A stretch of 64,000 bases of DNA from Paucisalibacillus globulus (GTDB lineage Bacteria > Bacillota > Bacilli > Bacillales > Amphibacillaceae). Of the stretch, positions 20,413 through 52,758 are shown one piece after another. A program made the position numbers and the translations under genes. The DNA is taken from positions 1 through 64,000 of the forward strand of contig NZ_LT855399.1 in assembly GCF_900184735.1 (NCBI RefSeq), given 5' to 3'. A model generated the notes under the pieces. The model did not search any database, had not been told where the DNA came from, and was given only the letters and a program-made list of their open reading frames with translations. Within the stretch, counting starts at the first letter, position 1, and every line of letters starts with the position of its first letter.

Positions 20413-20828
20413 AAGTTGAAGAATGCTGCGCTCTCATACATCAATTCATCATCAAATCATATTCAAAAAGAAGAATGATGCACTCTCATACATCATTTCA
20501 CAACTAAATCCTGTTCAAAAAGAAGAATGCCTCACCTTCATACATCAATTCATCATCAAATCTTATTCAAAAAGAAGAATGATGCACTCTCATACATCAT
20601 TTCACAACTAATTCATGTTTAATAAGAAGAATGTCGCACCTTCATACATCAATTCATCATCAAATCATATTCAAAAAGAAGAATGATGCACTCTCATACA
20701 TCATTTTACAACTAAATCCTGTTTAAAAAGAAAAATGCCGCACCCCCATACATCAATTCACAACTAAATCCTGATTAAAAAGAAAGATGGCACACTCCCA
20801 TACATCATTTCACCATTAAACCCCAACT
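20413..20828 (+). repeat. Tandem array of eight 52-bp repeats
   Basis: Units start at 20413, 20465, 20517 and so on to 20777, each exactly 52 bp. The shared core is AAGAAGAATG, then CTCATACATCATTTCA and ACTAAATCCTGTTCAAA. Two subtypes alternate through most of the array (GATGCACTC type and GCCTCACCTTC type), giving a 104-bp higher-order period. The AATGATG and CATCATT blocks can pair as a short hairpin in several units. The array lies between the convergent MscS and mrpG genes. No spacer/repeat structure of CRISPR type is present. Confidence 0.9.
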
Positions 20829-20869
20829 GAAATGATATATCTTGGAAGCGCGCCATCCCACTACTAAAG

Positions 20870-21232
20870 TTATCCTCTTTCTTTTTCATGTTCTTGAAAA
20901 TAATCTTTCAACTCATCTTCAACACTAGACTTCGTTAACGGAACATTAGCACGGTACGCAGCACGACTAATAACATGTGCTCCAACAGGTGCTGTTAAGA
21001 ATACGAAGATAATTCCCAGTATTAGTCGAATGCTAAAATACCCTTCTGAAATTAAGAAATAAAGTAAGGTACCAATTAGGATGAATAACACACCAACTGT
21101 GGAACTCTTTGATGCAGCATGTGACCTTGTGTAGACATCTGGCAGACGAACTAAACCAATTGCACTAATTAAACTAATGATGGTTCCAAATAATATGAGT
21201 ACCCCGGCAATGACCTCAGCGCTTTCTTTCAA
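20870..21232 (-). CDS. mrpG: Na+/H+ antiporter subunit MrpG
   Basis: About 120 aa with three membrane helices and the MrpG signature IGLVRLPDVYTRSHAASKSSTVGVLFILIGT. It is the last subunit of the Mrp complex, in which all seven subunits are needed for Na+(Li+)/H+ exchange. I chose TTG 21232, behind GAGGTG, which overlaps the mrpF end by 17 bp; a TTG at 21268 is in frame but deeper in mrpF. The charged tail (DELKDYFQEHEKERG) is cytoplasmic. The 52-bp array lies just beyond its stop. Confidence 0.92.
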   Translation of the reverse strand: MKESAEVIAGVLILFGTIISLISAIGLVRLPDVYTRSHAASKSSTVGVLFILIGTLLYFLISEGYFSIRLILGIIFVFLTAPVGAHVISRAAYRANVPLTKSSVEDELKDYFQEHEKERG

Positions 21233-21494
21233 TGACGACACCTCTTTCAATAAACCGTGCAAATGCAATTGTTCCTATAAAGGATAGGATGCCGATTAAT
21301 AAGATTAATTCAAAGAACGCGTGTGTATCAAGGTATACGGAGAAAATAGCAGTACCGGCAATTAAATTTATACCAATTGCATCTAATGCTTGAACTCTGT
21401 CCACGCTTGAGGGGCCTTTAACTACCCGGTAAAAATTAAACAGAATGGTTATTGTTAAAATAACTAAGGATAAAATCATTAAAATCTCAAACAT
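21216..21494 (-). CDS. mrpF: Na+/H+ antiporter subunit MrpF
   Basis: 92 aa with three membrane helices and the conserved GPSSVDRVQALDAIGINLIAG segment, whose Asp is a family hallmark. It is a small structural subunit of the Mrp antiporter. Its ATG overlaps the end of mrpE (TATGTTTGA) and its stop overlaps mrpG, which shows translational coupling through the operon. Confidence 0.93.
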   Translation of the reverse strand: MFEILMILSLVILTITILFNFYRVVKGPSSVDRVQALDAIGINLIAGTAIFSVYLDTHAFFELILLIGILSFIGTIAFARFIERGVVIERKR

Positions 21495-21969
21495 ATTTTC
21501 TAGTCACATCCTTTATAGCCCGTTCAAATATAATTTGGGATTTGAGTACGGACTCTTTTGAATCGGGAATATCCATCGCGTGAACGTACAAGCTTTTCCC
21601 ATCTGGGGTTACTTCCATTACAACCGATCCAGGAGTTAAACAGATGAGAAGAGAGAGTAGGGTGATCTCTACATCGCCCTCTAAGTCTGTATCAATCTTG
21701 AAAATGCCAGGAGTAATATTTTTTGGGCGAAGTATTTGACCAATCACTACAATTGCAGAACTCATTAACTCCCTTGCAAAAACGAATAATAGTTTTAAAG
21801 CTGCCCAGACAAAGAATAAATAAAAGGGCTTTTGGAAGAATCTTCGCATAAAGAATAGAATTATCAATCCAACGATATAACCACTCAAAAAGGAAAGGAA
21901 ATTCCACTCATCCTGGAAAAACATCCAAAGAAAAGCAATAAATATATTAACTAATATTTGAAAAGGCAT
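21487..21969 (-). CDS. mrpE: Na+/H+ antiporter subunit MrpE
   Basis: 160 aa with two N-terminal membrane helices, then a cytoplasmic domain including ILRPKNITPGIFKIDTDLEGDVEITLLSLLICLTPGSVVMEVTPDGKSLYVHAMD, the strongly conserved MrpE part. It is required for assembly or activity of the antiporter. AAGGAAGAG precedes the ATG. It sits 26 bp after mrpD. Confidence 0.93.
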   Translation of the reverse strand: MPFQILVNIFIAFLWMFFQDEWNFLSFLSGYIVGLIILFFMRRFFQKPFYLFFVWAALKLLFVFARELMSSAIVVIGQILRPKNITPGIFKIDTDLEGDVEITLLSLLICLTPGSVVMEVTPDGKSLYVHAMDIPDSKESVLKSQIIFERAIKDVTRKYV

Positions 21970-21995
21970 TACTGCTCTTCCTTTCTACAATAAAT

Positions 21996-23492
21996 TTAAG
22001 GAATCTCATTCCCACCAAAAACAGCATCAATATAAATCTGTGGGTTCATCAGACCTTCAACCGCAGTCTCCACATAAGAATTGATAATTTCAGGTCCGAT
22101 TCCAAGAGCAATGGTTAAAGCAGTTAACAAGGCAATCGGAACCATAACCCCTTTTGTGGTTCCTTTTTCTTCTTCCTCACTCAATACCGTCTCACCCCAG
22201 AAGGCATTCATGAAAATCTTCATGACGGAGTAGAGAATCATAAGACTCGCGATCAAACCAATAAACCCTAACCAGTAATAACCAGCTTCAAACGTACCTC
22301 TAGTCACAAAAACCTTACCAATAAAGCCACTTAATGGTGGAATTCCGATTAAAGACAATGATCCAATAAAGAACATCCATCCTAGATATGGATGGTTTCT
22401 GATTAATCCACTCATCTCTTTTAGAGTGGTTGTTCCTGTTAAATAAACAATAACACCACCGATTAGAAAAATAAGTGCTTTTACAATCATGTCGTGAATT
22501 AAATAATAAATAGAACCGAGTGCACCATTTTCTGTAAAGGCTGCAATTCCTGCTAATATAAAGCCTGCTCCTATAATAACGTTATAAGTTAAGATCTTGT
22601 TGATGTCTGAATAGGCGACTGCGCCAATCCCGCCGAGAATCATGGTCAATGCGGCTAAGATACCAAGTAATAAATGGGTTATTTGTGGTTCATGATAGAA
22701 TACCAGTGTGTACATACGAATAATGGCATATATACCCACCTTTGTCAGAAGGGCTGCAAATAGGGCAGAGACTGCTGTTGGTGGTGCACTGTATGAGCCT
22801 GGTAGCCAGTAGAATAGAAAGAGCCCCGCCTTTATACCAAATACAAGTAAAAATAATATGGCAATAGTGGTGATAAATCCATCTTGTCCAGCTTCTGCGA
22901 TTCTAACGGAGATATGAGCCAGGTTTAATGTTCCTGTTATCGAATAGATATAAGCGATTCCTACTAAGAAAAATGCAGAAGATAGAACATTAATAATGAC
23001 ATATTTCATGGTCTCTCTTAACTGTATCTTCGTCCCACCTAATGAAACTAATACATACGAAGCAAGTAGAAGTACTTCAAAGAATACATATAAATTAAAT
23101 AAGTCCCCTGTCATAAATGAACCATTTACACCTGTTATGAGAAATAAGAATAGAGAATAAAAATAATGTCTTTCTCGTTCTTTTCCAATAGTTCGAAAAG
23201 AAAAGATAACACAACAAAATGCGATAATACTGGTAGTTAAGACAAGTAGCATCGAGAACATATCTGCTACTAAGCCAATTCCAAATGGTGCTTGCCAGCC
23301 GCCAAGCTGCAAGGTTTGAATACCATTTACCGAAATTTGATTCATAATCGCTATGGAAATCCCAGCAACCACACCAAGTACAACGACACTAATAACTCGT
23401 TGTAGGCGAATATGATTACGTAATAGGATAAATAATAGTCCAGCTATTAAGGGTAATATAACTGGCCAGATTAATAGGTTATTCATGTTCAT
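21996..23492 (-). CDS. mrpD: Na+/H+ antiporter subunit MrpD
   Basis: 498 aa, about 14 membrane helices, homologous to the proton-pumping NuoM/N subunits of complex I. The conserved FEVLLLASYVLVSLGGTK (with the buried Glu) and GLFLFYWLPGSYSAPPTAVSALFAALLTKVG (with the Lys) give the proton path. MrpD and MrpA are the two large ion-translocating subunits. Its start overlaps mrpC by 14 bp. Confidence 0.95.
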   Translation of the reverse strand: MNMNNLLIWPVILPLIAGLLFILLRNHIRLQRVISVVVLGVVAGISIAIMNQISVNGIQTLQLGGWQAPFGIGLVADMFSMLLVLTTSIIAFCCVIFSFRTIGKERERHYFYSLFLFLITGVNGSFMTGDLFNLYVFFEVLLLASYVLVSLGGTKIQLRETMKYVIINVLSSAFFLVGIAYIYSITGTLNLAHISVRIAEAGQDGFITTIAILFLLVFGIKAGLFLFYWLPGSYSAPPTAVSALFAALLTKVGIYAIIRMYTLVFYHEPQITHLLLGILAALTMILGGIGAVAYSDINKILTYNVIIGAGFILAGIAAFTENGALGSIYYLIHDMIVKALIFLIGGVIVYLTGTTTLKEMSGLIRNHPYLGWMFFIGSLSLIGIPPLSGFIGKVFVTRGTFEAGYYWLGFIGLIASLMILYSVMKIFMNAFWGETVLSEEEEKGTTKGVMVPIALLTALTIALGIGPEIINSYVETAVEGLMNPQIYIDAVFGGNEIP

Positions 23493-23817
23493 GTCCCCTT
23501 AGTTGGTTCATATCATCTGTGCCATGCTTTTTATAGGTGCGGTAGCTTAACACGAGTAAAAATGCAGTAACAGCAAAGTTAATTACGATTGCTGTTAGAA
23601 TCAGAGCCTGTGGAATAGCATCTGTAAAGCTTTGGAAAGTCTCTGATAGTAATGGGGGACCACCGGTTTTGAGTCCACCCATCACCATAATCATCAGATT
23701 AATTCCGTGACTAATTAATGAAAGTCCAAGGATAATCCGTAGCATCTGATTGGATAAGATTAAATAAGTGCCAATGGAAAACAGAATTCCAATTACAATT
23801 GCTATTAGTGTTTCCAT
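23479..23817 (-). CDS. mrpC: Na+/H+ antiporter subunit MrpC
   Basis: 112 aa, three membrane helices, homologous to NuoK. ILSNQMLRIILGLSLISHGINLMIMVMGG and DAIPQALILTAIVINFAVTAFLLVLSYR are the conserved MrpC/NuoK parts. The start overlaps the mrpB stop (TAATG), a typical coupled junction. Confidence 0.95.
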   Translation of the reverse strand: METLIAIVIGILFSIGTYLILSNQMLRIILGLSLISHGINLMIMVMGGLKTGGPPLLSETFQSFTDAIPQALILTAIVINFAVTAFLLVLSYRTYKKHGTDDMNQLRGHEHE

Positions 23818-24251
23818 TACAATTCATCCTCACTTATGCTTGTTATGATGGTGATAGCAGTTCCGATAACCGCGAATGCTACGCCAATATCAAATAGTAC
23901 TGCTGTTGCAAGCTCTGTTTCACCAAATACTGGTAAGTCAAAATAACCAAATGCTTGCTCCAAGAAATTATCTCCATATATCATGCCCCCCATCCCTGTA
24001 GCAACAGAGATTAACACACCGAGGGCTGCCATCTTTTTATAATCAATCGGCAAATTGGTCTGTATTCGTTCAATATCAAATGATAAATAGAGCAAGACAA
24101 TTCCTGCAGCTGTCGTCAACCCACCGATAAACCCTCCACCAGGAAAATGGTGTCCTGCCCAAAACAGATCAATGGAAAAAGTGAAGATGATGACAGCGGC
24201 TAGTTTGGTGACAGTATGCAAAACGACATCATTAGGTTCAGGCTTCATCAT
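23817..24251 (-). CDS. mrpB: Na+/H+ antiporter subunit MrpB
   Basis: About 144 aa with four membrane helices. The segment DLFWAGHHFPGGGFIGGLTTAAGIVLLYLSF is the MrpB signature. I chose ATG 24251 because AAGGAAG is then well spaced; an in-frame GTG at 24257 overlaps it, and a further ATG follows at 24248. It overlaps the end of mrpA by about 14 bp. Confidence 0.93.
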   Translation of the reverse strand: MMKPEPNDVVLHTVTKLAAVIIFTFSIDLFWAGHHFPGGGFIGGLTTAAGIVLLYLSFDIERIQTNLPIDYKKMAALGVLISVATGMGGMIYGDNFLEQAFGYFDLPVFGETELATAVLFDIGVAFAVIGTAITIITSISEDEL

Positions 24252-26658
24252 GATCACTTCCTTTTGGTCTAAGCTTAATTAAGGTATAGACTCCTAAACC
24301 AGCAATTAGTAATACAGCTATTTCTAACATGGTATCAAAGCCTCTAAAATCTACTAGTATGGCATTCACGATATTCTTTGCACCTGCGAGTTCATAAGCA
24401 TTTTCAAAGAATTTCGTAATCGGTACATTGATCTTATGGCCAGTTGCAATTAATGTCATGACCGTTACGGTTAGCCCAACACTAATAGAAATGATTAAAT
24501 TTGTTACTTTAAACTTCATTTTTTCTAATCTTTTCCCTAGTTTCGGAAGATGGTAAAAACAGAGTAAGAATAGTACAGTTGTTACGGTCTCCACTACCAT
24601 CTGAGTTAACGCTAGGTCAGGAGCACGGAAAATAACAAATAACATTACCATTAAATAGCCAACGGCTCCAAGGGATACAATGGCAGTAATCCGATTCTTC
24701 GTTAACAGAGTTGCCATAGCCGCAGCAACCATCGCAACCAATATACCAATATCGTAAACAGAAATTTCTCCTTGATTTGAGAAATTAAAGGAAAGTGCAT
24801 CTAACCCAACTAAAGAACCAATCATGATAACCGTAATAAATATAAAGATATAAAGTAAATAGTGACGTATGTTTCCTGTCATATATCGGTTAGTGAAGGA
24901 TTCTGAATGTTTTTCCATCGCTTCTAAGCTGGTATTATATAAGTGATTTAAACTAAGTTTGTCCGGATATACTCGGAGAACAATGCTCCATTTCTTAATT
25001 GATAAGAAAAGTAGCAATCCGAGTATGACCACACCAATTGTCATCCAAAGTTCTGTACCAAATCCATGCCAGGCTTTAATTTCAAATAATTTACTATCAG
25101 TAGAAATAGTAGGTACAACAGATACTAAAGCGGGTTTTAAAATATAGGTTGCAAGTAAATTTGGAAAAAAGAAAATGAATACAACTAAAGAACCAAGAAT
25201 AGCTGGTGGAACCAGCATCCCGATTGGTGCTTCATGTACATTTTCTTTAGGGAGTCTCTCACGATGAAGCGCTCCTAAAAACGGCTTAATCAACAATATC
25301 AAACAATAAATAAAGGTGAAAATACTTGCCACCCAAGCAATGATAGGGAAGATCATGGTGATCCCTTCTAGTCCAAATACACTAACTTCTGAAGCGTTAA
25401 GCATTCCGGTAAAGAACATTTCTTTACTCAAGAAACCGTTAAACGGTGGTAATCCCGCCATGGAAAGACTTCCGATTAATGCAATGGTAAAAGTAACAGG
25501 CATAATGGCCATTAATCCACCAAGTCTCCTAATATCACGGGTTCCTGTTTCATGGTCAATAATCCCTACGACCATGAAAAGCGCTCCTTTAAAAGTAGCA
25601 TGATTAAAAAGATGGAAGAGAGCAGCAAAAACTGCAAAAGCATAAATCTCTTGTGCTTGCCCGATATTAAAATATAGGGCAGCAGAACCTACTCCGAGTA
25701 GACTCATAATGAGACCAAGTTGACTGATGGTTGAATATGCCAGTAATGCTTTTAGGTCAGTTTGTCTTACGGCTCGAACAGAACCGTATATTAATGTGAT
25801 AATTCCAATCCCACCAACTATCCAAAACCAACTTGCATCCCCACCGAAAATCGGCGTCATACGGGCTACTAAGTAGATTCCTGCTTTTACCATAGTTGCC
25901 GAGTGTAAATAAGCACTGACTGGTGTTGGTGCTTCCATTGCATCTGGCAGCCAGATACTGAATGGGAATTGTGCAGATTTAGTAAACGCACCTATCAATA
26001 CAAGTAGCATGGCTGGTATGAATAAGGAACTTCCCGTGATAAGGTCAACATTTGCTACCATCTCACGTATGCTATACGTATCGGTAATCATGGCTAACAT
26101 TATTAATCCAGCAAGCATTGCAAGGCCACCGAACACGGTAATAATCATTGATTTTAACGCACCAGAGCGAGATCGTTTACGTTCATACCAATAAGCAATT
26201 AGTAGGAAAGAAGATACACTGGTTAATTCCCATAGTGTATAAAGAACTAATACATTATCTGAGCTTACAAGGCCTAACATTGCCCCCATAAACATGAGAA
26301 GGTAAATATAGAAGTTATGAAGCGCCTCACGATCTTTGGCCATATAAAAGATGGAATATAGCACGACTAATGTACCGACTCCACTAATGATTAGGGCAAA
26401 CATCAGTGCTAAGCCATCTAAATAAATGTCAAAATTAATACCTAAAGATGGAATCCACTCCATTGTAATGGAAATAGTTTCACCATTTGAGATAGCAGGT
26501 ATTTGTAATAATAGGTTGATAAAAATAAAAAGGGGAACAATGATAACGAACCATCCTGTATGAAGAGAGGTGTTCCACTTTTTATAAATAATGGGCACGA
26601 ATAATGCCGCGATAAAAGGTAATAAAATAATAAAGTGCATAAAACTCAAAACTTCCAA
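24238..26658 (-). CDS. mrpA: Na+/H+ antiporter subunit MrpA
   Basis: About 800 aa with some 20 membrane helices. It is homologous to NuoL in its first two thirds (LWELTSVSSFLLIAYWYERKRSRSGALKSM, FPFSIWLPDAMEAPTPVSAYLHSATMVKAGIYLVARM), with an MrpA C-terminal extension and an MrpB-like domain. It is the largest ion-translocating subunit. The start is uncertain: TTG 26658 touches GGGAG, TTG 26649 is better spaced, and ATG 26640 (MHFIILLPF) aligns best with relatives. A 19-bp palindrome lies just upstream. Confidence 0.95.
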   Translation of the reverse strand: MEVLSFMHFIILLPFIAALFVPIIYKKWNTSLHTGWFVIIVPLFIFINLLLQIPAISNGETISITMEWIPSLGINFDIYLDGLALMFALIISGVGTLVVLYSIFYMAKDREALHNFYIYLLMFMGAMLGLVSSDNVLVLYTLWELTSVSSFLLIAYWYERKRSRSGALKSMIITVFGGLAMLAGLIMLAMITDTYSIREMVANVDLITGSSLFIPAMLLVLIGAFTKSAQFPFSIWLPDAMEAPTPVSAYLHSATMVKAGIYLVARMTPIFGGDASWFWIVGGIGIITLIYGSVRAVRQTDLKALLAYSTISQLGLIMSLLGVGSAALYFNIGQAQEIYAFAVFAALFHLFNHATFKGALFMVVGIIDHETGTRDIRRLGGLMAIMPVTFTIALIGSLSMAGLPPFNGFLSKEMFFTGMLNASEVSVFGLEGITMIFPIIAWVASIFTFIYCLILLIKPFLGALHRERLPKENVHEAPIGMLVPPAILGSLVVFIFFFPNLLATYILKPALVSVVPTISTDSKLFEIKAWHGFGTELWMTIGVVILGLLLFLSIKKWSIVLRVYPDKLSLNHLYNTSLEAMEKHSESFTNRYMTGNIRHYLLYIFIFITVIMIGSLVGLDALSFNFSNQGEISVYDIGILVAMVAAAMATLLTKNRITAIVSLGAVGYLMVMLFVIFRAPDLALTQMVVETVTTVLFLLCFYHLPKLGKRLEKMKFKVTNLIISISVGLTVTVMTLIATGHKINVPITKFFENAYELAGAKNIVNAILVDFRGFDTMLEIAVLLIAGLGVYTLIKLRPKGSDHDEA

Positions 26659-26667
26659 CTCCCTGTA

Positions 26668-26686
26668 TGAAAAAAGACTTTTTTCA
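26668..26686. promoter_or_regulatory. 19-bp palindrome just upstream of mrpA
   Basis: TGAAAAAAG and CTTTTTTCA flank one central base, forming a perfect inverted repeat 9 bp upstream of the outermost mrpA start. On the mrpA transcript it would be a weak hairpin next to the ribosome site. It may be an operator or a translational control element. Confidence 0.5.
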
Positions 26687-26712
26687 CAAAATTACTGATT
26701 TCCATTATTTCA

Positions 26713-26740
26713 TTGACATTTAACAACAACATGATATAGT
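26713..26740 (+). promoter_or_regulatory. Sigma-A promoter for the universal stress protein gene
   Basis: TTGACA (26713-26718) and TATAGT (26735-26740) with 16 nt between. It reads away from the mrp operon toward the gene at 26845. Confidence 0.75.
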
Positions 26741-26844
26741 CATACATAGTTTAATTATAAAGTCATATTTTATTTATGTTTATAAGCATATTCTAAGAAA
26801 ACTAATGGAAGCTTTTATAAAACTTTTTACGAGGTGAATATATC

Positions 26845-27534
26845 ATGGAAAATAAAAATGGTCGTTTGGACGAAAGCATACTAGTCTGTGTACACTATGG
26901 TCCAAATGGCGAACGTCTAATTAGAAGAGGCCTCAAAATAGCTAATATGCTAGGCTGTCCGTTATATATTCTTACAATTGACTCGAAGCCATTTGATGAA
27001 ATGGATGCAGAGAAGACATTTTATATTGAACATTGGAAACAGCTAGCAGAAGAGCATGAAGCTTCCGAATTTATGATGTTAGATAATGAGAAACGATCGG
27101 TTTCAAAGGTTATCGCACAAGTCGCCAGAGATAAACATGTTACACAAATCATACTTGGTCAAACAGCACAAAGTAGATGGGAACAAATTACAAAAGGTTC
27201 GTTAATTAACACATTACTTCATGAAATTCCATTTGTAGATTTGCATATAATTTCTGTTACTCGTTATATCCGCAATGAAAATGGACAATTCCAAAGAGGT
27301 TGTCGAGCATATTTATCGAAGGAAGAAGATCATTACCGTTTAACATTTAAACATTCCAATTCCGTTGATTATGAGGGAATTTTCTTTAAAGAACAAGGCA
27401 CTGATTTTGATAATGGTATCTTCAAGTTTATGAGAGATAAGGAAATGTTTAAGGTTCAAGTAACAGATGGTACGGTAAAAGAACTAAAGAAAGTTGAAAT
27501 GAACGTAGATTACGAACAGGAAAGCAAGTCATAG
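26845..27534 (+). CDS. Universal stress protein-like protein (KdpD-type USP domain)
   Basis: Residues about 8-140 form a USP-like Rossmann domain resembling that of the KdpD sensor: ESILVCVHYGPNGERLIRRGLKIANMLGCPLYILTIDS, then VTQIILGQTAQSRWEQITKGSLINTLLHEIPFVDLHII with the GxTxxSRWE...GS nucleotide-site pattern. The C-terminal 80 residues are not recognised. Divergent placement from the mrp operon suggests a role in ion or osmotic stress (inference). GAGGTGAA precedes the ATG; a terminator follows. Confidence 0.75.
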   Translation: MENKNGRLDESILVCVHYGPNGERLIRRGLKIANMLGCPLYILTIDSKPFDEMDAEKTFYIEHWKQLAEEHEASEFMMLDNEKRSVSKVIAQVARDKHVTQIILGQTAQSRWEQITKGSLINTLLHEIPFVDLHIISVTRYIRNENGQFQRGCRAYLSKEEDHYRLTFKHSNSVDYEGIFFKEQGTDFDNGIFKFMRDKEMFKVQVTDGTVKELKKVEMNVDYEQESKS

Positions 27535-27538
27535 GGAT

Positions 27539-27569
27539 GACTCTCCAACTGATTGGAGAGTCTTTTTTT
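27539..27569 (+). terminator. Rho-independent terminator
   Basis: GACTCTCCAA pairs with TTGGAGAGTC around a CTGA tetraloop, followed by seven T residues. It ends the stress-protein gene. Confidence 0.93.
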
Positions 27570-28131
27570 ATAAATTCACATCTACTCTAACCTGATTTTT
27601 TTCTTCAGTTGTAATTCCGATATAGTTTAAGGTTTCTGTTCTAGAATTGTGGTGAAACATTTTCATTAAGATGGAGATGGTAACACCTTTTCGGTAGGCA
27701 TGATAGCCAAAAGTCTTCCGTATCGAATGTAAACCGACCTTTTCTTCAATTCCCGCCTTTTTTGCTGCATTATTAATGATTCGATAAGCTTGTTGGCGTG
27801 TAATGGGCTTTTCGTTCTTTTTTGACTTAAACAAAAAATCCTTCTGTTCTAGCTTATATTTCTCTAAGTATTTATCCAAAGCACTATGTACTTGGTTGTT
27901 GAGAAAATGTTCACTGACCTCAGAAGTTTTTTCATCTCGGACATAGAGAAACTCTTTCGTCTTTTGTCCATCCCACACATCTTCCACTTTTAGATTCAAT
28001 AAAACCTGTGCACTGATACCGGTATTAATACCAATCACAAATAGCACGAAATCTCTCAAAGAAGACGATTCTAGTATATTTTTCATTGCATTTATTTTTG
28101 AAATATCCTTTATAGGGACAACAAATTCCAT
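27568..28131 (-). CDS. Tyrosine recombinase/integrase-like protein, YoeC-like
   Basis: A 187-aa protein consisting almost only of the catalytic domain. HSIRKTFGYH holds the His and second Arg, MFHHNSRTETLNYIG holds the second His and the nucleophile Tyr. Where the first catalytic Arg is expected (TGLRISELL in relatives) the sequence reads TGISAQVLL, so that Arg is missing. I chose ATG 28131 (MEFVVPIKD), with GGAG 9 nt upstream; ATG 28146 is in frame but lacks a ribosome site. A 12-bp inverted repeat lies just upstream. It is not next to other phage genes. Confidence 0.8.
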   Translation of the reverse strand: MEFVVPIKDISKINAMKNILESSSLRDFVLFVIGINTGISAQVLLNLKVEDVWDGQKTKEFLYVRDEKTSEVSEHFLNNQVHSALDKYLEKYKLEQKDFLFKSKKNEKPITRQQAYRIINNAAKKAGIEEKVGLHSIRKTFGYHAYRKGVTISILMKMFHHNSRTETLNYIGITTEEKNQVRVDVNL

Positions 28132-28148
28132 AGTTTTATTCTCCATTA

Positions 28149-28187
28149 ATGTTACATAACTTTATACTAACATAGGTTATGTAACAT
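28149..28187. promoter_or_regulatory. 12-bp inverted repeat next to the integrase-like gene
   Basis: ATGTTACATAAC (28149-28160) and GTTATGTAACAT (28176-28187) are perfect inverted copies separated by 15 bp. They could be an operator for the gene on the minus strand or a recombinase recognition site. The remaining intergenic sequence to 28381 shows no other clear element. Confidence 0.6.
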
Positions 28188-28381
28188 CGACAATTGTGAG
28201 GTATGTGACAGAATTGTGAACAAGATTTGTATTTTTTCACTATATACTATTGTTATCCTTAAAATGGTTTTTATGAATTAAGCTCCGTGTGGCACAATGT
28301 TAATTAAATAATTATTCAAAATTTTTAACTTACAATATGGTACACTTGTTAATAGATATGTATTGGATCTTTGGGGGGCTT

Positions 28382-28694: not shown

Positions 28695-28710
28695 GGGGAG
28701 TGTATGTTAG

Positions 28711-28980: not shown

Positions 28981-29013
28981 TGGTGCCATATTTACTTTAA
29001 GGATTCAAGTACA

Positions 29014-29055: not shown

Positions 29056-29143
29056 GCTATTAATGGAGTGCCAGACACCAATACTTTAGTAGATGATGTT
29101 ATACTTACGATATGATAAATCGACAGAAAAAGGAGTGTTTGGG

Positions 29144-30121: not shown

Positions 30122-30142
30122 GCTTTTTAGAAAGATTTAAAG

Positions 30143-44310: not shown

Positions 44311-44321
44311 GGGGTGTTGGT

Positions 44322-45371: not shown

Positions 45372-45385
45372 GGGATGGTCACCCT
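45331..45385 (+). terminator. Long hairpin over the galE stop
   Basis: AGGGTGACCATCC (45331-45343) pairs perfectly with GGATGGTCACCCT (45373-45385), and inner TTCACC/GGTGA blocks extend it. The 5' arm is inside galE. A strong T run is missing, so this may be a terminator with a weak tail or an mRNA-stabilising 3' hairpin. Confidence 0.6.
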
Positions 45386-45394
45386 TCCTTGACT

Positions 45395-46503
45395 TTATTT
45401 TCTAAATAGAAGTTTGATTAATTTTGCTCCAATCATGGAGCAGGTCCATAATATCAGGTTAAAGAAATTCAGTAGGAATATGGAGCCATACATGGAAGGG
45501 AAATCCAAAAAGAACGAGACAAGAAATATCCCGAACATGTTCCCCATAGTTACAATCAAGAAAAAGAAAATAGGATTATACCATTTGGAAAATTGTCTAA
45601 AAAATACGAGTATACATGGTATTAGTAGATTCACACCTAAGTACCCTAAAAGAATAGCATCGGTAAATTCAATGAGTCCATCCGCATCTAGAGGAGTACC
45701 AGGTAATATCAAGGCTGCAGAAATAATAGCATAGAAAAATAAAATAAAAATGGTCCATTTCTCAGCTTTCTTTGTATTAGAACGAATGATGGCAGCCTTT
45801 GTCTTCTCAACGTCTTCTTGAACCCCCATGGGCATCCATGCGGGAAAAGGGTTATCAGACAGTTCTTTTCCTACATGTTCGCTAACAATATTATTAGATG
45901 ACCCCTCTACTTCTGAAAAATCAATATCTACATATCCTCTTGAACGAAGTGCCTGGCTAAGATCTTGTTGCGTGTAGGTGATACTCACTTTGTCTTCTAA
46001 CCTGTCTATCCAGTTTTGGAGATCCTTAGCACTTGAAAATGTTTCGGTGAACATCCCATCCCCGTGCAAAATAAAAAGGATTGCTTCCAATCGACAATAA
46101 CGTAAAGACCCGTTCATACTCGAGTTCCGTACAATAATGTGAACTGGATTTATCCCGATTATGACTTTATTCACTTGAGTGTATGGAATGATTTTTTGTT
46201 TGGTTTCACCAGTTTTTGTATTTTCCCATTGCTCGAGAATTCGTTCATCATCGAGCTCATATCGATAGATTACCTTCCTCTGAATAGGCAAACCTGTATA
46301 TGCAAAGAACCCTAGGATTACTGCCACCGGGACAAAAAAGGCAAGAACCCACCAATCACCATCATCGAAGCTAAATAAATCCCTAGAATGACGGAACCGA
46401 TAGCAGGTACACCAAACAATGCGGAAAATAGATAGCCTGTAGTAGTTGGTTTAACTTCATTTGAATATGTAATGGGCATATGTTTTTGGACTAGCTTTTC
46501 CAT
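45395..46503 (-). pseudogene. Frameshifted PH-domain-like membrane protein gene
   Basis: ATG 46503, behind AGAGGTG, encodes MEKLVQKHMPITYSNEVKP and a first membrane helix, and stops at 46318. The next frame continues from 46327 with AVILGFFAYTGLPIQRKVIYRYELDDERI, a bacterial PH-like region and three C-terminal helices, to 45395. Adding one T to the T6 run on the coding strand (plus 46334-46339) joins them as GGFLPFFVPVAVILG, a complete second helix. The repaired protein would be about 370 aa. It is a real mutation, a phase-variable tract or a sequencing error. Confidence 0.7.
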
Positions 46504-46687
46504 TGTTAAATTCACCTCTCGCTACAAACGCGTTTATAGTAAATACGCATAACGTTTTAAAAAGTTTCACCTTCAGGAAGAAAGACCTAAATACTTGGAA
46601 TTTTCTTTAAATGTATGTTACTGATGTTGTGGAACTGATATGATAGATATGTGATTATCAATTCCTAATAAATGGGGGAATGTATGG

Positions 46688-47073
46688 ATGAAATGGACTG
46701 TGAGGGTTGCTGAAATTGTATTAGGGGCAATTTTCTTGGAGCTGGCTTAAATGGGTATGCAGTACTGTTTGGGTTTGAACCATTTGCACCGACAAGCCCA
46801 GCTGCAACAGAGTTTCTCGGAGATGGGTATTTGCTTGCGATGGAAAAAGGGGTGGAGATAATAGCCGGGGTGTTATTATTAATTCGTCGGTTTATTCCAT
46901 TAGTACTGGTTGTTCTTGCAGGTGTTGTCATTAACATATTAGCATTTCACATTTTTGTTGATTCCGAATTGATTCTGCTAGCAATATTTGTTGTGGCATT
47001 AGAAGGGTATCTAGCTTGGCAATATAGGGAAAACTTTAAAGGGTTATTGGAAAGTAGGCCACATCAAAACTAA
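46688..47073 (+). pseudogene. Frameshifted DoxX-like membrane protein gene
   Basis: ATG 46688 encodes MKWTVRVAEIVLGAIF and then stops. The neighbouring frame continues GAGLNGYAVLFGFEPFAP...GDGYLLAMEKGVEIIAGVLLLI and on to 47073. A one-base gain near 46731-46740 (ATTTTCTTGGA) would restore one four-helix protein of about 128 aa resembling small DoxX-family proteins. The joined length is 3n+2, as expected for a single-base loss. GGGGGAAT lies upstream of the ATG. Confidence 0.7.
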
Positions 47074-47108
47074 CCATAGCCTAAGCTTAACAGTAAAGGT
47101 TTGAGCCC

Positions 47109-47978
47109 ATGGAATATATAAATCTTACAGCAAAAGATGGACTGGAGTTATCCGTGGTACTTTTTGAAGCACATGAAACCAAAGGCTTATTACAGATCAT
47201 TCACGGTGCTCAGGAACATAAAGAACGCTATTATCATTTTATAAACTACTTAAATACTAACGGATTTACGGTAATCATATCAGATAATCGTGGACACGGG
47301 GCCTCCGTCAATGAGCAGTATCCTTTGGGGTATATGAATGGTGTGGAGGAAATCATCGAGGATCAGGTCATGATAACAGACTATATCAAGAGTCGATTTC
47401 CTGGTAAGGAACTATACTTGTTTGGTCATTCTTTGGGCTCACTATTTGCAAGATGTTATTTACAAAAGCATGATTATAAAATTAAGAAGCTTGTGATGAG
47501 TGGTACAGCTAATTATGTATCCCTAGTTGGTGTAGGTATCTTTCTAGGCAAGATAATTACTTTTTTCTCAGGTAAACATGGTTATAGTAAAGTACTGCGT
47601 AATCTAAATGGAAATAGTAAGGACGATTCATGGCTAAGTGCGAGTCAAGAGAATCTTATAGCCTATCGTAATGATCCACTATGCCAATTCAATTATCAAA
47701 ATAATGGGATGTTAACGGTATTTGAAGCAGATTGGAATTTACATCAATACCAGAAGTATTCATGTCATAATCCAGAATTAGAGATTTTAAGTGTAGTTGG
47801 GGAAGATGATCCGGTAACTGGTGGGGAAAAGGGGTTACAAGATTCATTTGATGCACTTAGAAAAATAGGTTACAAGCATGTGAGTAGTAAGGTGTATACT
47901 GGGATGAGACATGAGGTGTTGAATGAAGTTGATAACCAGAGAGTTTATGAGGACATTGTTCAATTTCTAAAGCGGTGA
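47109..47978 (+). CDS. Alpha/beta hydrolase, lysophospholipase-like
   Basis: The 289-aa protein has the Hydrolase_4 (serine aminopeptidase S33/monoacylglycerol lipase) layout: LLQIIHGAQEHKERYYHFINYL (oxyanion region), VIISDNRGHGASV, the nucleophile elbow LFGHSLGSLFAR, VVGEDDPVTGG (acid) and GMRHEVLNEV (His). It probably cleaves lysophospholipids or monoacylglycerols in the cytoplasm. It starts 36 bp after the frameshifted DoxX-like gene. Confidence 0.88.
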   Translation: MEYINLTAKDGLELSVVLFEAHETKGLLQIIHGAQEHKERYYHFINYLNTNGFTVIISDNRGHGASVNEQYPLGYMNGVEEIIEDQVMITDYIKSRFPGKELYLFGHSLGSLFARCYLQKHDYKIKKLVMSGTANYVSLVGVGIFLGKIITFFSGKHGYSKVLRNLNGNSKDDSWLSASQENLIAYRNDPLCQFNYQNNGMLTVFEADWNLHQYQKYSCHNPELEILSVVGEDDPVTGGEKGLQDSFDALRKIGYKHVSSKVYTGMRHEVLNEVDNQRVYEDIVQFLKR

Positions 47979-48001
47979 GGATAAGATTTGTATAGAATAG
48001 T

Positions 48002-48030
48002 TTGACTGTATAATAATAAAATTCTATACT
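48002..48030 (+). promoter_or_regulatory. Promoter of the candidate antitoxin RNA
   Basis: TTGACT (48002-48007) and TATACT (48025-48030) are separated by 17 nt. Transcription would start near 48037 and run toward the 3' end of the holin-like toxin gene on the other strand. Confidence 0.7.
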
Positions 48031-48036
48031 AATAAT

Positions 48037-48170
48037 AGAAAAAGGTACTTAGTAGCGGGTAACTACTAAGTACCACAACTTCAAACCGCATAAAGAGCGG
48101 ATGACCAATTGAAGACTTTCTAAAAAGAAGTAACGCACACTATGGTCTAGGGGCGGTTACTTCTTTTTGT
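48037..48170 (+). ncRNA. Candidate antisense RNA (type I antitoxin) opposing the holin-like toxin
   Basis: From the promoter at 48002-48030 an RNA of about 130 nt would form a perfect hairpin (GGTACTTAGTAG 48043-48054 with CTACTAAGTACC), then a CCGC/GCGG stem, and end at GAAGTAAC...GTTACTTC followed by TTTTTG. No ribosome site or frame is seen. Its last part is complementary to the end of the toxin mRNA. This is the convergent layout of TxpA/RatA-type loci. The RNA itself is inferred from sequence. Confidence 0.6.
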
Positions 48171-48267
48171 TTGTTAGAAAGACGACAATAGTTACAATGC
48201 ATGTTATTCCTGCTGTTAATGAGAGACTAAATTGTACTAGTATACTCAAAGCTTCGTATGTCGTCAT
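48157..48267 (-). CDS. Putative holin-like toxin (Hol-Tox), 36 aa
   Basis: The frame MTTYEALSIL... followed by one membrane helix and the basic end NKKK matches the putative holin-like toxin family, which typically begins MTTYEALSLM. AGGAGG (plus 48277-48282) lies 9 nt upstream. The leader contains CCACTTCC and GGAGGTGG, which can form an 8-bp hairpin burying the ribosome site. Its 3' end is within the terminator stem shared with the opposing RNA. It should be a membrane-depolarising peptide of a type I toxin-antitoxin unit. Confidence 0.82.
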   Translation of the reverse strand: MTTYEALSILVQFSLSLTAGITCIVTIVVFLTNKKK

Positions 48268-48526
48268 TCATACCACCTCCTTCAAAGGAAGTGGCCAACC
48301 GCCCACTATATTATGTAGTTGTTAATGATATTCTATCAGATAATAGAAGGAAATAATACATAATAGTAGAACAAATGTTTGGTTTTAGTTTAAATATACT
48401 AATAAATCTATTGCGTAAACCAACTATTCGTAATACTATATTCTTAATACTACATTACATTAAAACCATTACAAAGAGATTCTATTGTAGTGGTTTTCTT
48501 TTTTATATTCTAAGTAGGGGGAGAGC

Positions 48527-49435
48527 ATGGAAAATAGAAAAACTAAACAATATTTTACTATATTTGTAGTTGCTGCATTAACAATTTGTTTAATTTCCAT
48601 TTTTTTATTAACGAACAAAGTATCTAATTTAGAGAATCAGATGAGTGATATGGTAAGTTTACAGCATAATGTGTTAAACAGTGTAGATGGCCAAAGTCAC
48701 CAGATTCAGAGTGCCTTGGATGATTTTCAGAAGCAACAAAGTTGGTTAGGGGAAGTGGAAGTGGAAGCAAGTTCAATTGAAAATGACGAAGGGGAGATTA
48801 GTTTTACCTGGCAGGTCAAAGAGCTAGAAGGTGGGTCTAACGTACACTTCAATTATTCTTTTCGGAAGGAAGGGGACTTTACTGAAGTGCTGGCCGAAGA
48901 GAAAGATAAGGGACTATACCAAATATCGATTCCACTAGAACTTAACCTTGGGCCAGCCTGGAATCCTGTTATCATTAATTATACACCGAATAGTGAGATG
49001 GAAACGGCAGATAGTGGAATAGAGTATGAATTTAAAAAGGAAGAATATGAAGAAACAGCATTTTACTATTTTGTTTCTGTTACCAATGAGGATGGTACTT
49101 TTAAAAATGGAGATATACAAAAGATTTTCTTACAGGATTTTAATGTACAACAATATGGAATTATAGAGACAGAGGTCCAAATTATGGATGAAAAAGTAGA
49201 CATAACATTACATCATGGAGCAGTAGAAAATTATAATTACTTAATTGAAGAAGTATATCTTTTGGAGTATTCGGGACAAGAATTAATCGATGAAGTAAAA
49301 CTAGATTATGTTGAGGGTACGGAATACACTAGTCTTTTTCGAATTGAAGATGTAGAGAAGCGTGATAATATAAATCATGCAATAAAGGTTATCTATCCAA
49401 ATGGAGAGGTATTTGAGGAAGAGTTAACATTCTAA
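48527..49435 (+). CDS. Membrane-anchored hypothetical protein, 302 aa
   Basis: An N-terminal membrane helix (residues about 8-27) is followed by a coiled-coil region (KVSNLENQMSDMVSLQHNVLNSVDGQSHQIQ) and two acidic beta-rich domains outside the cell (for example GEISFTWQVKELEGGSNVHFNYSF). I do not recognise a named family; similar anchored proteins occur in Bacillaceae. GGGGGAGAG precedes the ATG. A repeat element begins 3 bp after its stop. Confidence 0.7.
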   Translation: MENRKTKQYFTIFVVAALTICLISIFLLTNKVSNLENQMSDMVSLQHNVLNSVDGQSHQIQSALDDFQKQQSWLGEVEVEASSIENDEGEISFTWQVKELEGGSNVHFNYSFRKEGDFTEVLAEEKDKGLYQISIPLELNLGPAWNPVIINYTPNSEMETADSGIEYEFKKEEYEETAFYYFVSVTNEDGTFKNGDIQKIFLQDFNVQQYGIIETEVQIMDEKVDITLHHGAVENYNYLIEEVYLLEYSGQELIDEVKLDYVEGTEYTSLFRIEDVEKRDNINHAIKVIYPNGEVFEEELTF

Positions 49436-49438
49436 ACA

Positions 49439-49731
49439 GAGGCTGGGACAAAAGAGTTTTAGTTGATTAATATCCGAACGAACATGAAAGGCGCATAGAC
49501 CCGCTCCGGAAATATACTACGCTTTTACTGCCAGCATAGGGGCGACATCTGTTCGAAAAGACCTCACAGTGTCTTCCTTGCCGCGGGCGGCTGGTGAGCC
49601 TCCTCAGAGCTAAAGCTCTTCCGGGGTCTCACCGATGCCTATCCTCCTGCAGGAGTCTCCGTATATTTCCGGAGCTGATGTGGCGTTTCGTTCAGGTTCT
49701 CAACTTATACTTTTAGTTATGTCTCAGCCTC
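49439..49731. repeat. 293-bp non-coding element with terminal inverted repeats
   Basis: The ends GAGGCTGGGACA (49439-49450) and TGTCTCAGCCTC (49720-49731) are inverted copies with one mismatch. The interior is markedly GC-richer than the neighbourhood and contains several internal inverted blocks (TCCGG...CCGGA, AGAGCT...AGCTCT, CTCCTGCAGGAG). It contains no credible gene. Elements beginning GAGGCTGGGACA are common between genes in Bacillaceae and staphylococci. It may be a MITE-like element or a structured RNA. Confidence 0.65.
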
Positions 49732-49737
49732 CCTTCA

Positions 49738-50064
49738 TTAGCGGAATACATACGTTAAATAATTTCCACCATATTCACCATATTTCACCCCTTTTTCTTT
49801 TAACTTCCTCCAGATAAATCTATCTAATGCATAAGGGGAACGGGATTGTAGGTTAACTAGTTCATTCTTGGAAATGGTTAGATTACATATAACGTTATTA
49901 TTTTTAATGACGATTTCGTAGTTTGCTAGATGGATTACTTGTACTTGATAGTTAGGATCCCATTCCTGTAATTGTTGTTCAATACAAGTTGCAACATGCT
50001 CTATAAATTTTTCCCCTTTCAAATTTTTAGACATGTAACCTCTAATAAAGCCAGTAGTGTTCAT
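49738..50064 (-). CDS. Hypothetical protein under SAM riboswitch control, 108 aa
   Basis: ATG 50064 has GGAGG upstream and encodes MNTTGFIRGYMSKNLKG, then an alternating strand pattern (YQVQVIHLANYEIVIKNNNVICNLTISKNEL) and a C-terminal helix with ALDRFIWRKLKEKGVKYGEYGGNYLTYVF. I do not recognise a family. The SAM-I riboswitch and terminator 45 bp upstream on the same strand imply repression when SAM is plentiful, so a link to methionine, cysteine or SAM supply is likely (inference). In-frame codons extending upstream to 50208 would lie in the riboswitch and are not used. Confidence 0.7.
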   Translation of the reverse strand: MNTTGFIRGYMSKNLKGEKFIEHVATCIEQQLQEWDPNYQVQVIHLANYEIVIKNNNVICNLTISKNELVNLQSRSPYALDRFIWRKLKEKGVKYGEYGGNYLTYVFR

Positions 50065-50108
50065 ATGATTACCTCCAATGTTTTTTTCAAATAGGTTATA
50101 AGAACAAA

Positions 50109-50263
50109 ATAAAAAAGCCCTTTGTTGCAATTGAATGCGGACAAAGAGCTTATAGCACCGTTCGTTATCATTCAAAGCAAGCTTTGCTGGTTGGAGCACC
50201 TTACTCATCTTGAGCAGGTTGCTGTGAAGTCATAGAGCCAGTGCTCTCATTCACTCTTGATAA
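50109..50263 (-). ncRNA. SAM-I (S-box) riboswitch with terminator
   Basis: Read on the minus strand, P1 is TTATCA (from 50263) pairing with TGATAA (to 50165). P2 is GTGAA/TTCAC plus AGAGC/GCTCT with a kink-turn, and the conserved CAGCAACC and AAGGTGCT blocks follow. P4 is CAAAG/CTTTG. Downstream, AGCTCTTTGT pairs with ACAAAGGGCT and is followed by T6, an intrinsic terminator (50150-50109). Helices are kept by compensating changes relative to the usual S-box sequence, which supports the call. Confidence 0.88.
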
Positions 50264-50433
50264 CCATATTGAATTATCCATATCATATCATGATTCTGGG
50301 TTGGAGTGTTAGGTTTTTGCTTTAGTTTATCCGTCTCTAGGCGGAGAACAATTACACCTAGAGATACTTGTTTCCCTTTTTATTTCTCGTAAACTAGTAG
50401 GTAATAACAAAATAAAGATCGGAGTTGAATTGG

Positions 50434-51531
50434 ATGAGAATAGAGAAGACAGTTGAAACAGTAGTTAATCGAGTTATCAGAAATGCGAAGCGTTCTATTG
50501 TCAAAGAAGAAGTCATTCAAAAGGAACGAATCGATTATGCTAGTTTAAAGGAAATACATATCATTACATCAAGTATTAATGTTGAAGTTACTAGTCATGA
50601 TCAACCTCATATTGATATTGTATTGAAAACCTATAAAGATGGACCAGAAATGAAGCTGAATTTAGAAAATCATGTATTGGAAATAACAGCTTTTAAACCA
50701 AATCAACAACAGACATTTTTCGGTCTTTTTCCATCAACAAAAATGCAACTCGTCGTACCAACTGCAGTAGCGGAGAAGTGGGACGTGCGAACAGGATCTG
50801 GTGATGTTAGATTTTCAAAGGTTATCATGGATCAGCTTACGGTTAATGTCGGTTCTGGTGATATTAATTTGTCGGATATGGAAGCTGGACAACTTAATCT
50901 TCGATGTGCATCAGGCGATGTTAAGGCTAAAAATATGAAGTCAGACACGCTTTATGTAAACTCATCTTCTGGAGATATGGTGTTACGAAAACTTGCTGTT
51001 AGTAATGTTAAGACAGAGATGAGTTCTGGTGATATTCTAATTGCTGACCTACAAGGAGAAGACCTTGAGGTTAAGATAGCTTCAGGTGACGTAGATTTGA
51101 AAAAAATTAATATCGTAAAAGGAACCGTCGTATCTCGTACTGGTGTTGTTAAAGCTAATCATGTTCAAGCGGAAATGTTAACGATAAACACTAAAACGGG
51201 TGACATGAACATTAAAGAATTCTCAGGGAGCTTAAATGGTTCCATTGGAGCCGGTGATTTAAAACTCGATGTTAGGGAAGAGTGTATAGTTAATCTAGAA
51301 GCAAACAGTGGAGATATCACGGTTAAATTAGATCATGAAATAGGATTAAATGCTACAGTTGATATCACGAGCGATTCAGAAGAAATATCAACGAATCTTC
51401 CACTACAAGTTCAGAACGATTCTTCTAGGTTAATAGGTGTTACTGGAGAAGGGGAAAATGCTATTCGCATTAACTCTAAATCTGGTGATGTAAAAGTATT
51501 AATGCAAGAAGTAGAAAACGTGCAGGGCTAG
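50434..51531 (+). CDS. DUF4097 beta-repeat protein (LiaG-like)
   Basis: The 365-aa protein is a right-handed beta-helix-like repeat of the DUF4097/adhesin family. The short phrase SGD recurs about every 18-22 residues (GSGDVRFSK, GSGDINLSD, ASGDVKAKN, SSGDMVLRK, SSGDILIAD, ASGDVDLKK). Relatives include LiaG of the envelope-stress operon. No signal peptide is seen. ATG 50434 is preferred with GGAG upstream; TTG 50425 overlaps that site. A GGCT-like gene follows. Confidence 0.85.
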   Translation: MRIEKTVETVVNRVIRNAKRSIVKEEVIQKERIDYASLKEIHIITSSINVEVTSHDQPHIDIVLKTYKDGPEMKLNLENHVLEITAFKPNQQQTFFGLFPSTKMQLVVPTAVAEKWDVRTGSGDVRFSKVIMDQLTVNVGSGDINLSDMEAGQLNLRCASGDVKAKNMKSDTLYVNSSSGDMVLRKLAVSNVKTEMSSGDILIADLQGEDLEVKIASGDVDLKKINIVKGTVVSRTGVVKANHVQAEMLTINTKTGDMNIKEFSGSLNGSIGAGDLKLDVREECIVNLEANSGDITVKLDHEIGLNATVDITSDSEEISTNLPLQVQNDSSRLIGVTGEGENAIRINSKSGDVKVLMQEVENVQG

Positions 51532-51543
51532 GAGATGAAAAGC

Positions 51544-51915
51544 ATGCATAACGTCTTTGTTTATGGCACCTTGTTAAAAGGGGAACGAAATGACTTTTTA
51601 TTGAAAAATGCGACCTGTATTGCAGAACATTGTACGACCCTAGGCGAACTATATGATACTGGATACGGTTATCCGGCTATTAAACTTTCAAACGAAGCCC
51701 GAGTGTATGGAGAACTATACCAAGTATCAGATGATGAATTAATAGAGTTAGACCGGTTAGAAGGATATACAGATGGTGCAAGTGATAATCTATATGAGCG
51801 TGTGATTCAATCAGTTGAAACAGGGGCAGGGACTACTACAGCTTTTGTGTATGTAGCTGCTAGTGAGAATCTATTAAATGAAAGGATCGTTAGTGGGGAT
51901 TGGCGAGTAAAATGA
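51544..51915 (+). CDS. Gamma-glutamylcyclotransferase-like (AIG2/YtfP) protein
   Basis: The 123-aa protein has the GGCT-fold signature VFVYGTLLKGERNDFLL at the N-terminus, GELYDTGYGYPAIKLS, GELYQVSDDELIELDRLEGY (with the catalytic Glu region) and a final VYVAAS. Such enzymes release 5-oxoproline from gamma-glutamyl amines. ATG 51544 has AGGAG 9 nt upstream; ATG 51535 touches that site. It lies just after the DUF4097 gene and ends at a terminator. Confidence 0.88.
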   Translation: MHNVFVYGTLLKGERNDFLLKNATCIAEHCTTLGELYDTGYGYPAIKLSNEARVYGELYQVSDDELIELDRLEGYTDGASDNLYERVIQSVETGAGTTTAFVYVAASENLLNERIVSGDWRVK

Positions 51916-51927
51916 TAGAGTGTTAGT

Positions 51928-51958
51928 GGGCATGTTCTGGGAGAACATGTCCTGTTTT
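51928..51958 (+). terminator. Rho-independent terminator
   Basis: GGGCATGTTCT pairs with AGAACATGTCC around a GGG loop, followed by TGTTTTTG. It ends the DUF4097/GGCT unit. Confidence 0.88.
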
Positions 51959-52030
51959 TGTATTGCGGACTTTTATAGATCAATTAAATGCTAATTCTTG
52001 GTAGAATTGATGTATTGTGGCCTCTCATTC

Positions 52031-52758
52031 TTCGTTTCAATCTTATTCTTGAGTCACACTGAAGTATGGCAACTGGTCTTTCTTCATTTCAAACAAAAAC
52101 TCAGGTCGAATTGAAGTATAGAAGCATCTTATTCTTCATTTCAAACAAAAACTCAGGTCGAATTGAAGTATAGAAGCATCTTATTCTTCATTTCAAACAA
52201 AAACTCAGGTCGAACTGAAGTATAGAAGCATCTTATTCTTCATTTTAAAGAAAAATTCAGGTCGAACTAAAGTATAGAAGCATCTTATTCTTCATTTCAA
52301 ACAAAAATTCAGGTCGAACTAAAGTATAGAAGCTTCATATTCTTCATTTCAAACAAAAACTCAGGTCGAACTAAAGTATAGATGCATCTTATTCTTCATT
52401 TCAAACAAAAACTCAGATCGAAATGAAGCATAGAAGCTTCTTATTCTTCATTTTAAACAAAAACTTAGGTCGAAATGAAGCATAGAAGCTTCTCATTCTT
52501 CATTTTAAACAAAAACTTAGGTCGAACTAAAGTATAGAAGTCTCACATTCTTCATTTCAATTAATAAAACGGTTTGAAATGATGTATAGCAAACCCTCAT
52601 ACATCATCTCAAACAAAAAAAGACATTGAAATGATGTGTAACAAGCCCTCATACATCATTTCAATCCAAATCTAGGATTAAACTGATAAGTATTAACCAC
52701 TCACACATCATCCCAAAATCCCGATTAAATAAAGAATAACACCGCCAACACAACACCA
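52031..52758 (-). repeat. Tandem array of fourteen 52-bp repeats, same family as the array at 20.4 kb but inverted
   Basis: Units begin at 52031, 52083, 52135 and so on to 52707, always 52 bp apart. Typical plus-strand content is TTCATTTCAAACAAAAACTC, AGGTCGAATTGAAGTATAG and AAGCATCTTATTC; a diverged unit may precede at 51979. The last units carry TGAAATGATGTAT and ATACATCAT blocks. Aligned by hand without gaps, its reverse complement matches the unit of the 20.4-kb array at 29 of 52 positions. No gene is seen between 51916 and 52878. Confidence 0.9.

Follow-up and report, generated by a model that had tools for sequence, protein, structure and literature searches.

Constant-length 52-nt satellite arrays and adjoining genes for NERD nucleases in Paucisalibacillus globulus and other bacteria

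How does a tandem repeat keep its unit length to the base while its sequence drifts? The question is posed by two arrays of 52-bp units, here called A and B, in a stretch of 64,000 nucleotides from Paucisalibacillus globulus (NCBI RefSeq assembly GCF_900184735.1, contig NZ_LT855399.1, positions 1 to 64,000 of the forward strand), which we refer to as the window. Array A (20413..20828) comprises eight units between convergent genes, and array B (52003..52758) comprises 14 dyads at 52-bp steps (52003-52715), with a unit register that runs to 52758, between tandem genes; both are of the alpha type defined below. A sequence-only reading of the window had counted eight and fourteen units with a period of exactly 52 bp at these places, and the count was confirmed. 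The answer that we propose starts from genes for stand-alone nucleases with a nuclease-related domain (NERD) that lie beside arrays of this kind: the pairing of such a gene with an adjoining satellite array is almost certainly genuine.

The arrays themselves are members of a published class. Subirana & Messeguer (PMC8161180) described Bacillus satellites whose size is constant, at 20-21 or 52 nt, and whose sequence varies, which corrects the earlier statement that no described family with such a unit was known. Arrays A and B are tandem, with at least four units and a period of 51-53; by simple calls of open reading frames (ORFs) they are non-coding and intergenic; and they lie in a genome with many arrays of the same size that differ in sequence, each unit containing short signals together with their reverse. 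As the sequence-only reading had held, neither array is coding, no ORF of at least 80 aa covering it, and neither is a CRISPR, because the entire 52-bp unit repeats and unique spacers are absent. The tables of PMC8161180 cover Bacillus species only. N. mesonae appears in that paper with 95 tandem repeats, 88.4% of them of 52 nt. The function of both size classes is called unknown and "enigmatic" there; a nucleoid protein or a small RNA is proposed, and the authors saw no evidence that any Cas-like protein interacts with repeats of 52 nt.

When the genes flanking the arrays were compared by blastp, one family of ~310-aa proteins recurred, and it proved to carry the NERD domain (PF08378; Pfam E values of 1e-16 and 2e-15, above the curated cut-off). 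In this genome arrays flank a 311-aa NERD gene (contig C5:66095-67027) on either side, and its relative on contig C22 on one side. Arrays also adjoin the orthologues of these genes in the P. globulus comparison genome (G001), Ornithinibacillus californiensis (G005) and Paucisalibacillus sp. EB02 (G007). Where other neighbours recurred, the loci were orthologous or the proteins only remotely related within large families. These results also bear on a defensive role, in which NERD nucleases would attack foreign DNA and the arrays would hold or mark them on the chromosome. The NERD part does match MAD6 weakly (E 1e-4 to 8e-4, far under the cut-off), as well as PglW (E 0.005). However, no second family recurs with NERD beside the arrays, ordinary paralogues excepted, and two further neighbours were recognized as a catalase and an FAD oxidoreductase; we regard a defence or decoy system as improbable.

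We then took as the NERD set all PF08378 matches at E<=1e-5, 118 genes in 24 genomes (50 in the 11 genomes of the genus and 68 in 13 others reached via named loci). PF08378 had no match in B. spizizenii, nor in one of the three Paenibacillus genomes. Arrays were called with Tandem Repeats Finder (TRF) within 1.5 kb of each NERD gene, some flanks being cut by contig ends. At a TRF score of at least 100, an array of the 20-21- or 51-52-nt class was present beside 62 of the 81 NERD genes of 290-362 aa, compared with 0/65, 4/58 and 2/166 control genes (respectively, genes in 120 kb sampled from N. mesonae (G041), genes at symporter loci in the same 13 genomes, and genes at other symporter loci). 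At a score of at least 60, the figures were 77/81 for NERD genes and 9/65, 4/58 and 2/166 for the controls. At this lower score, the 38 NERD genes of 290-315 aa had 52-class arrays in 33 cases, both classes in one, the 21-class in three and none in one; the 43 genes of 316-362 aa had the 21-class in 31 cases, the 52-class in seven, both in two and none in three; and among 28 shorter genes there were nine with the 21-class, seven with the 52-class and 12 with none. No array was found beside the six genes of more than 600 aa, and one of the remaining three genes had a 21-class array. Arrays of the 52-class were mostly on the 3' side of the NERD gene (47 cases, versus eight on the 5' side). N. 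mesonae has 14 NERD genes, of which 13 were flanked by arrays at a score of at least 60 and 10 at a score of at least 100. Two NERD genes with an internal stop stand next to intact-looking arrays (L292, at C3:7128-8036 of Ornithinibacillus bavariensis (G006), and L255 in N. mesonae), and may be decaying homes.

Both the length and the sequence of the repeat follow the NERD phylogeny. A quick tree was made from 105 of the 118 proteins (those of 190-400 aa). One clade of 48 NERDs (SH-aLRT support 98) included 44 with 52-class arrays, three without arrays and one, close to a contig end, for which the 21-class call was weak; only three genes outside this clade had 52-class calls. With three array labels placed on the tree, 15 changes were required, compared with 44.3 in shuffles (0/200 as low). 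As to sequence, a score of likeness to the window family was computed for the 21 NERD genes of the genus that have 52-class arrays: the family adjoins eight of them, which form one clade (support 100), and not the other 13. A NERD of the matching clade is present in five of the six genus genomes that carry arrays of the family, and in none of the five that lack them. Across 45 homes (NERD genes with a 50-53-nt TRF array at a score of at least 100, compared by TRF consensus units rather than raw copies), protein identity correlated with unit identity read in the sense of the NERD gene (r=0.24, p=0.001) and not with the antisense unit (r=0.05). Unit identity was 76% for proteins more than 80% identical (3 pairs), 54% at 60-80% (22 pairs) and about 41% below 50%. 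When arrays were typed as alpha or beta by likeness to the home arrays, A, B and all 18 typed dispersed arrays of this genome were alpha, and in O. bavariensis, which has only a beta NERD gene, 6/6 typed arrays were beta. These comparisons show that the NERD clade predicts repeat length (51-52 or 20-21 nt) and that the subclade predicts repeat sequence, within limits. Beside some subclades the arrays have 51-nt rather than 52-nt units (L302, L304, L310, L296, L309 and others), which suggests that even a single base of unit length is linked to the protein.

The window family was then followed within the genus. Array A used as a BLAST query gave 16 matches in this genome, and a model built from 76 units matched 207 times at E<=0.1 when hits on either strand were included. 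The family is indeed found in relatives, with matches at E<=1e-4 in six of the 11 genomes and none in the other five. Dyads were scored by profile in 61 arrays, which include the two window arrays and the locus L034; of 61 array loci fetched by place, six (L156, L160, L164, L165, L168 and L169) did not yield two consecutive scored dyads and are not among these arrays. The steps between units were 335 of 52, seven of 51, five of 53 and one of 104, and there were none of 48-50 or 54-56, although chaining permitted these. The earlier proposal that unit length is fixed despite drift thus holds well beyond the window. Units were 0.72-0.96 identical to the consensus of their own array, and arrays were on average 0.55 identical to one another by a profile measure, so that both of the causes suggested earlier, selection on spacing and homogenisation, have evidence, in the length that is kept and in the similarity of units within arrays.

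The sites of the arrays stay put between species and their copy numbers shift. Site B has 14 dyads here, ~7 units in the P. globulus comparison genome and ~2 in EB02. At five shared sites EB02 has 2-4 units (L163, L166, L167, L171 and site B in L048) compared with 5-16 in this genome (L019, L145, L023, L024 and the window); the EB02 assembly has no alpha-type NERD, and its draft state may shorten arrays. Loss of the NERD gene may be a cause of array decay, but the beta home array of EB02 (8 units versus 6) and the arrays of 3-11 units in a genome without a matching gene (G003) do not fit it. Variable copy number is what one would expect of ordinary variable-number tandem repeats, in which case the adjacency to NERD genes would be a coincidence or a shared hot spot. 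Given the strict length, the comparison with controls and the co-inheritance of repeats with the NERD tree, we find this explanation barely credible.

The link between each NERD and its own satellite nevertheless has several points to answer. The genomes are mostly drafts, and ORFs were called by a simple script. NERDs of ~260-275 aa are mostly without arrays, and those above 600 aa always so. Among 149 genomes drawn across the phylum, NERD was found in 57, and 30 NERD loci drawn in the same way had no array at a score of at least 100, two of them having a two-copy 22-nt repeat with a score of 60-67; the pairing therefore belongs to a NERD subfamily and not to NERD at large. The correlation between protein and unit identity is modest. 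In addition, G003 carries arrays of the family, and no NERD of the matching clade was found in its assembly. EB02 has only a beta NERD gene, yet 5/5 of its typed dispersed arrays are alpha, and in the P. globulus comparison genome, which has only the alpha gene, 5/15 arrays lean towards beta.

What might a protein recognize in the unit? The 52-bp unit consists of two inverted half-sites (~TGAAATGAWGNATRR) flanking a centre of ~11 bp, with a linker of ~15 bp that is itself weakly palindromic. The imperfect hairpin blocks noted in the sequence-only reading are therefore real, the unit being an inverted repeat. The same reading had described A and B as inverted relative to each other, from a match at 29 of 52 positions. 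We reproduced this match, which was the best of 104 placements and was reached by only 3/2000 shuffles, and is thus above chance; however, 29/52 was also obtained in the direct orientation, and the arrays cannot be called inverted on this basis. The equality arises because the unit is a near-palindrome, and a sequence-only model built from the 76 units likewise matched both strands nearly equally. When the model was oriented via the adjacent NERD genes, A and B were both placed on the + strand, by modest margins of 3.9 and 5.9 bits per unit. A terminator-like hairpin, identified from its sequence (20361..20399, + strand), comes after the gene at 19031-20314 and lies 51 bp ahead of the first dyad of array A; it has the AAGAAGAATG motif in common with the array, and the profile scores it as a weak unit. 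The interval from this hairpin to A is the only step of 51 bp at the two window arrays, all dyad-to-dyad steps within A and within B being 52.

An inverted repeat could also be read as an RNA hairpin, and the hypothesis that such arrays are transcribed as structured RNA (hairpins, or a sponge) is already published. In B. coagulans 52-nt satellites are transcribed (PMC8625621), and an inverted repeat was detected at p<=0.05 in 22/45 home units (again TRF consensus units, not raw copies). However, across the arms of 27 array consensuses no pair of positions covaried above shuffled partners, and three fell below (p<0.04); a pairing test within arrays (222 units) gave 1/11 positions above expectation (p=0.026). 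Both arms match the same half-site consensus independently of each other. The lack of covariation is evidence against a hairpin in RNA and favours half-sites for a protein. Rfam, moreover, had no match at array A or B, and the arrays occupy gaps of every gene orientation. A selected RNA hairpin is not supported, for want of covarying base pairs, and structured RNA as an account of the arrays seems very improbable.

The NERD proteins have features that could serve both recognition and cleavage. In 84 NERDs of 280-362 aa, not all of them linked to arrays, the active-site residues E42, D75, E/D88 and K90, together with Q119, are conserved in 82-84 proteins, as are four zinc-ribbon cysteines (82-84 of the same set). 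Among NERDs of 190-400 aa, 79/90 of those linked to arrays have the zinc-ribbon pattern, compared with 4/15 without arrays. The C-terminal part may form a small helix-turn-helix with a wing. A search for relatives of solved structure found none, the best match being a ribosomal protein with an E value of 0.27. Homologues of the window-type NERD were not found in plasmids (E<=1e-8), in phages (E<=1e-5) or, in a scan for close relatives, in viral contigs, and two other NERD types were not found in plasmids.

From these features we propose a model, on balance probable, in which a NERD nuclease would bind its own repeat, spacing would fix the unit length and cutting would drive the turnover of the arrays. 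A NERD dimer would bind the two inverted half-sites of each unit via its C-terminal zinc ribbon and helical part, and the step of 52 bp, about five helical turns, would hold adjacent dimers in register. The nuclease would break or nick the array, and repair would gain or lose whole units, a form of turnover that would keep units equal in length and alike within an array and, now and then, seed arrays at new intergenic sites. Arrays A and B are dispersed members of one 52-nt satellite family, whose putative partner is the chromosomal NERD nuclease on C5, with its relative on C22. The recurrence of NERD neighbours, each with its own matching repeat, gives the impression of a system in two parts, of which the repeats would be the DNA component.

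Beyond the NERD home, further arrays of matching sequence lie elsewhere in the genome, and home and dispersed arrays also occur together in three N. mesonae families (12, 9 and 5 loci) and for the 343-aa NERD of this genome, which has a 42-nt repeat (19 BLAST rows). GC skew indicates that replication of the N. mesonae chromosome starts near 2.63 Mb and ends at 5.2-5.4 Mb. In one N. mesonae family, that of L253, 11/12 array loci lie within 1.92-3.15 Mb, around this inferred origin; the two others are spread out. Spreading around the home gene was seen for one N. mesonae family and not for two others, and was rejected as a rule.

This clustering is one of the points in favour of the main rival on function, which accepts the pairing of NERD with its arrays. 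NERD would polymerise on the arrays and organise the chromosome or separate the ends of genes, its nuclease fold serving mainly for DNA binding; this is a protein version of the published nucleoid hypothesis. A unit length held at 52 would also be expected on this account, as would a preference of the arrays for certain gaps between genes. For the 60 of 61 arrays with genes called on both sides, 35 gaps were tandem, 18 convergent and seven divergent, compared with 97, 23 and 40 among the other gaps of at least 50 bp at the same loci, so that arrays are enriched in convergent gaps (Fisher p=0.011) and depleted in divergent ones (p=0.041). However, the active-site residues of NERD are conserved, the family is missing from five of the 11 genus genomes, and only one of the three N. 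mesonae families is clustered. We consider such a host function unlikely.

Orientation relative to replication was also checked. In N. mesonae, where merging reduced 39 BLAST rows to 26 loci (and in one case joined a weak row on the opposite strand to a stronger one), the sense of the array was head-on to the fork at 23/26 loci (p=9e-5), and 8/8 NERD genes of the 52-type were head-on versus 2/5 of the 21-type. By local skew, which is not independent of gene direction, 37/47 NERD genes of the 52-type, 17/43 of the 21-type and 5/15 without arrays were head-on in the 24 genomes. This polarity may reflect spread by way of a strand that the fork leaves exposed, or else some polar function. The dispersed arrays of the window family, however, had no polarity (35/60 head-on, p=0.25; 27/48 among the clearer cases), which rules out polarity as a general rule, and for this reason it is kept out of our best explanation. 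The same result weighs against a bolder idea, that a NERD and its cognate satellite constitute an undescribed class of chromosomal self-propagating element, in which a nuclease gene with a tandem array mostly on its 3' side would, by its activity, multiply and scatter its target arrays as replication proceeds. The head-on bias in N. mesonae and of the 52-type genes in the 24 genomes would fit such an element; we offer it as a possibility only, and a somewhat doubtful one.

Other features of the window include a riboswitch for S-adenosylmethionine (SAM) at 50162-50266 (- strand), 1.7 kb from array B, which reaches the Rfam gathering score and is the only Rfam match in the window to do so. There are also two more arrays with a period of 42 (21) nt, at 16458-16723 and 57983-58112. 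BLAST with the 42-nt array that adjoins the 343-aa NERD in this genome matched neither of them. Small ORFs overlap the first, which might be coding.

The repeats are thus a known class, and what is new, within the open-access literature searched, is their pairing with a nuclease; no link between NERD and satellites was found there. The pairing joins two unknowns, the satellites called enigmatic in PMC8161180 and a domain whose function, according to PMC9040797, had not been studied experimentally before 2022. If each NERD recognises its own satellite, a single protein with a single array would suffice to test why length is constant and sequence is not, and a recognition code could be read from dozens of protein/target pairs that occur in nature. 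If the pair is a self-propagating element, the many paralogues with their own target sequences would constitute a natural set of nucleases and targets.

Several known systems invite comparison. The arrays resemble the satellites of Subirana & Messeguer in their constant size of 52 nt, in a sequence that varies, in the presence of several families in one genome, in their intergenic sites and variable copy number, and in the co-occurrence of short signals with their reverse inside one unit (PMC8161180, PMC6749651 and PMC8625621). They differ in that no partner is named in those papers, whereas here NERD genes adjoin arrays of either size class, and the unit follows the NERD tree in length as well as in sequence. 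The partner proteins are like other NERD domain proteins (PF08378) in scoring above the family cut-off and in keeping the conserved acidic and lysine residues. CRISPR arrays also have tandem units of constant length, but here the whole unit repeats and there are no unique spacers. In REP/REPIN systems (repetitive extragenic palindromes and their paired forms), the gene for a RAYT, a Y1 transposase, lies beside its own palindromic repeats, which have many dispersed intergenic copies. A RAYT as the partner of the arrays was rejected, the recurrent neighbour being PF08378 instead, although no search was made for a RAYT in the rest of the genome. By analogy, both systems may be seen as a nuclease-type gene adjoining its own palindromic repeats, with dispersed copies between genes; here, however, the protein is a NERD (PD-(D/E)XK-like), and the repeats are long tandem arrays of fixed period rather than single or paired palindromes.

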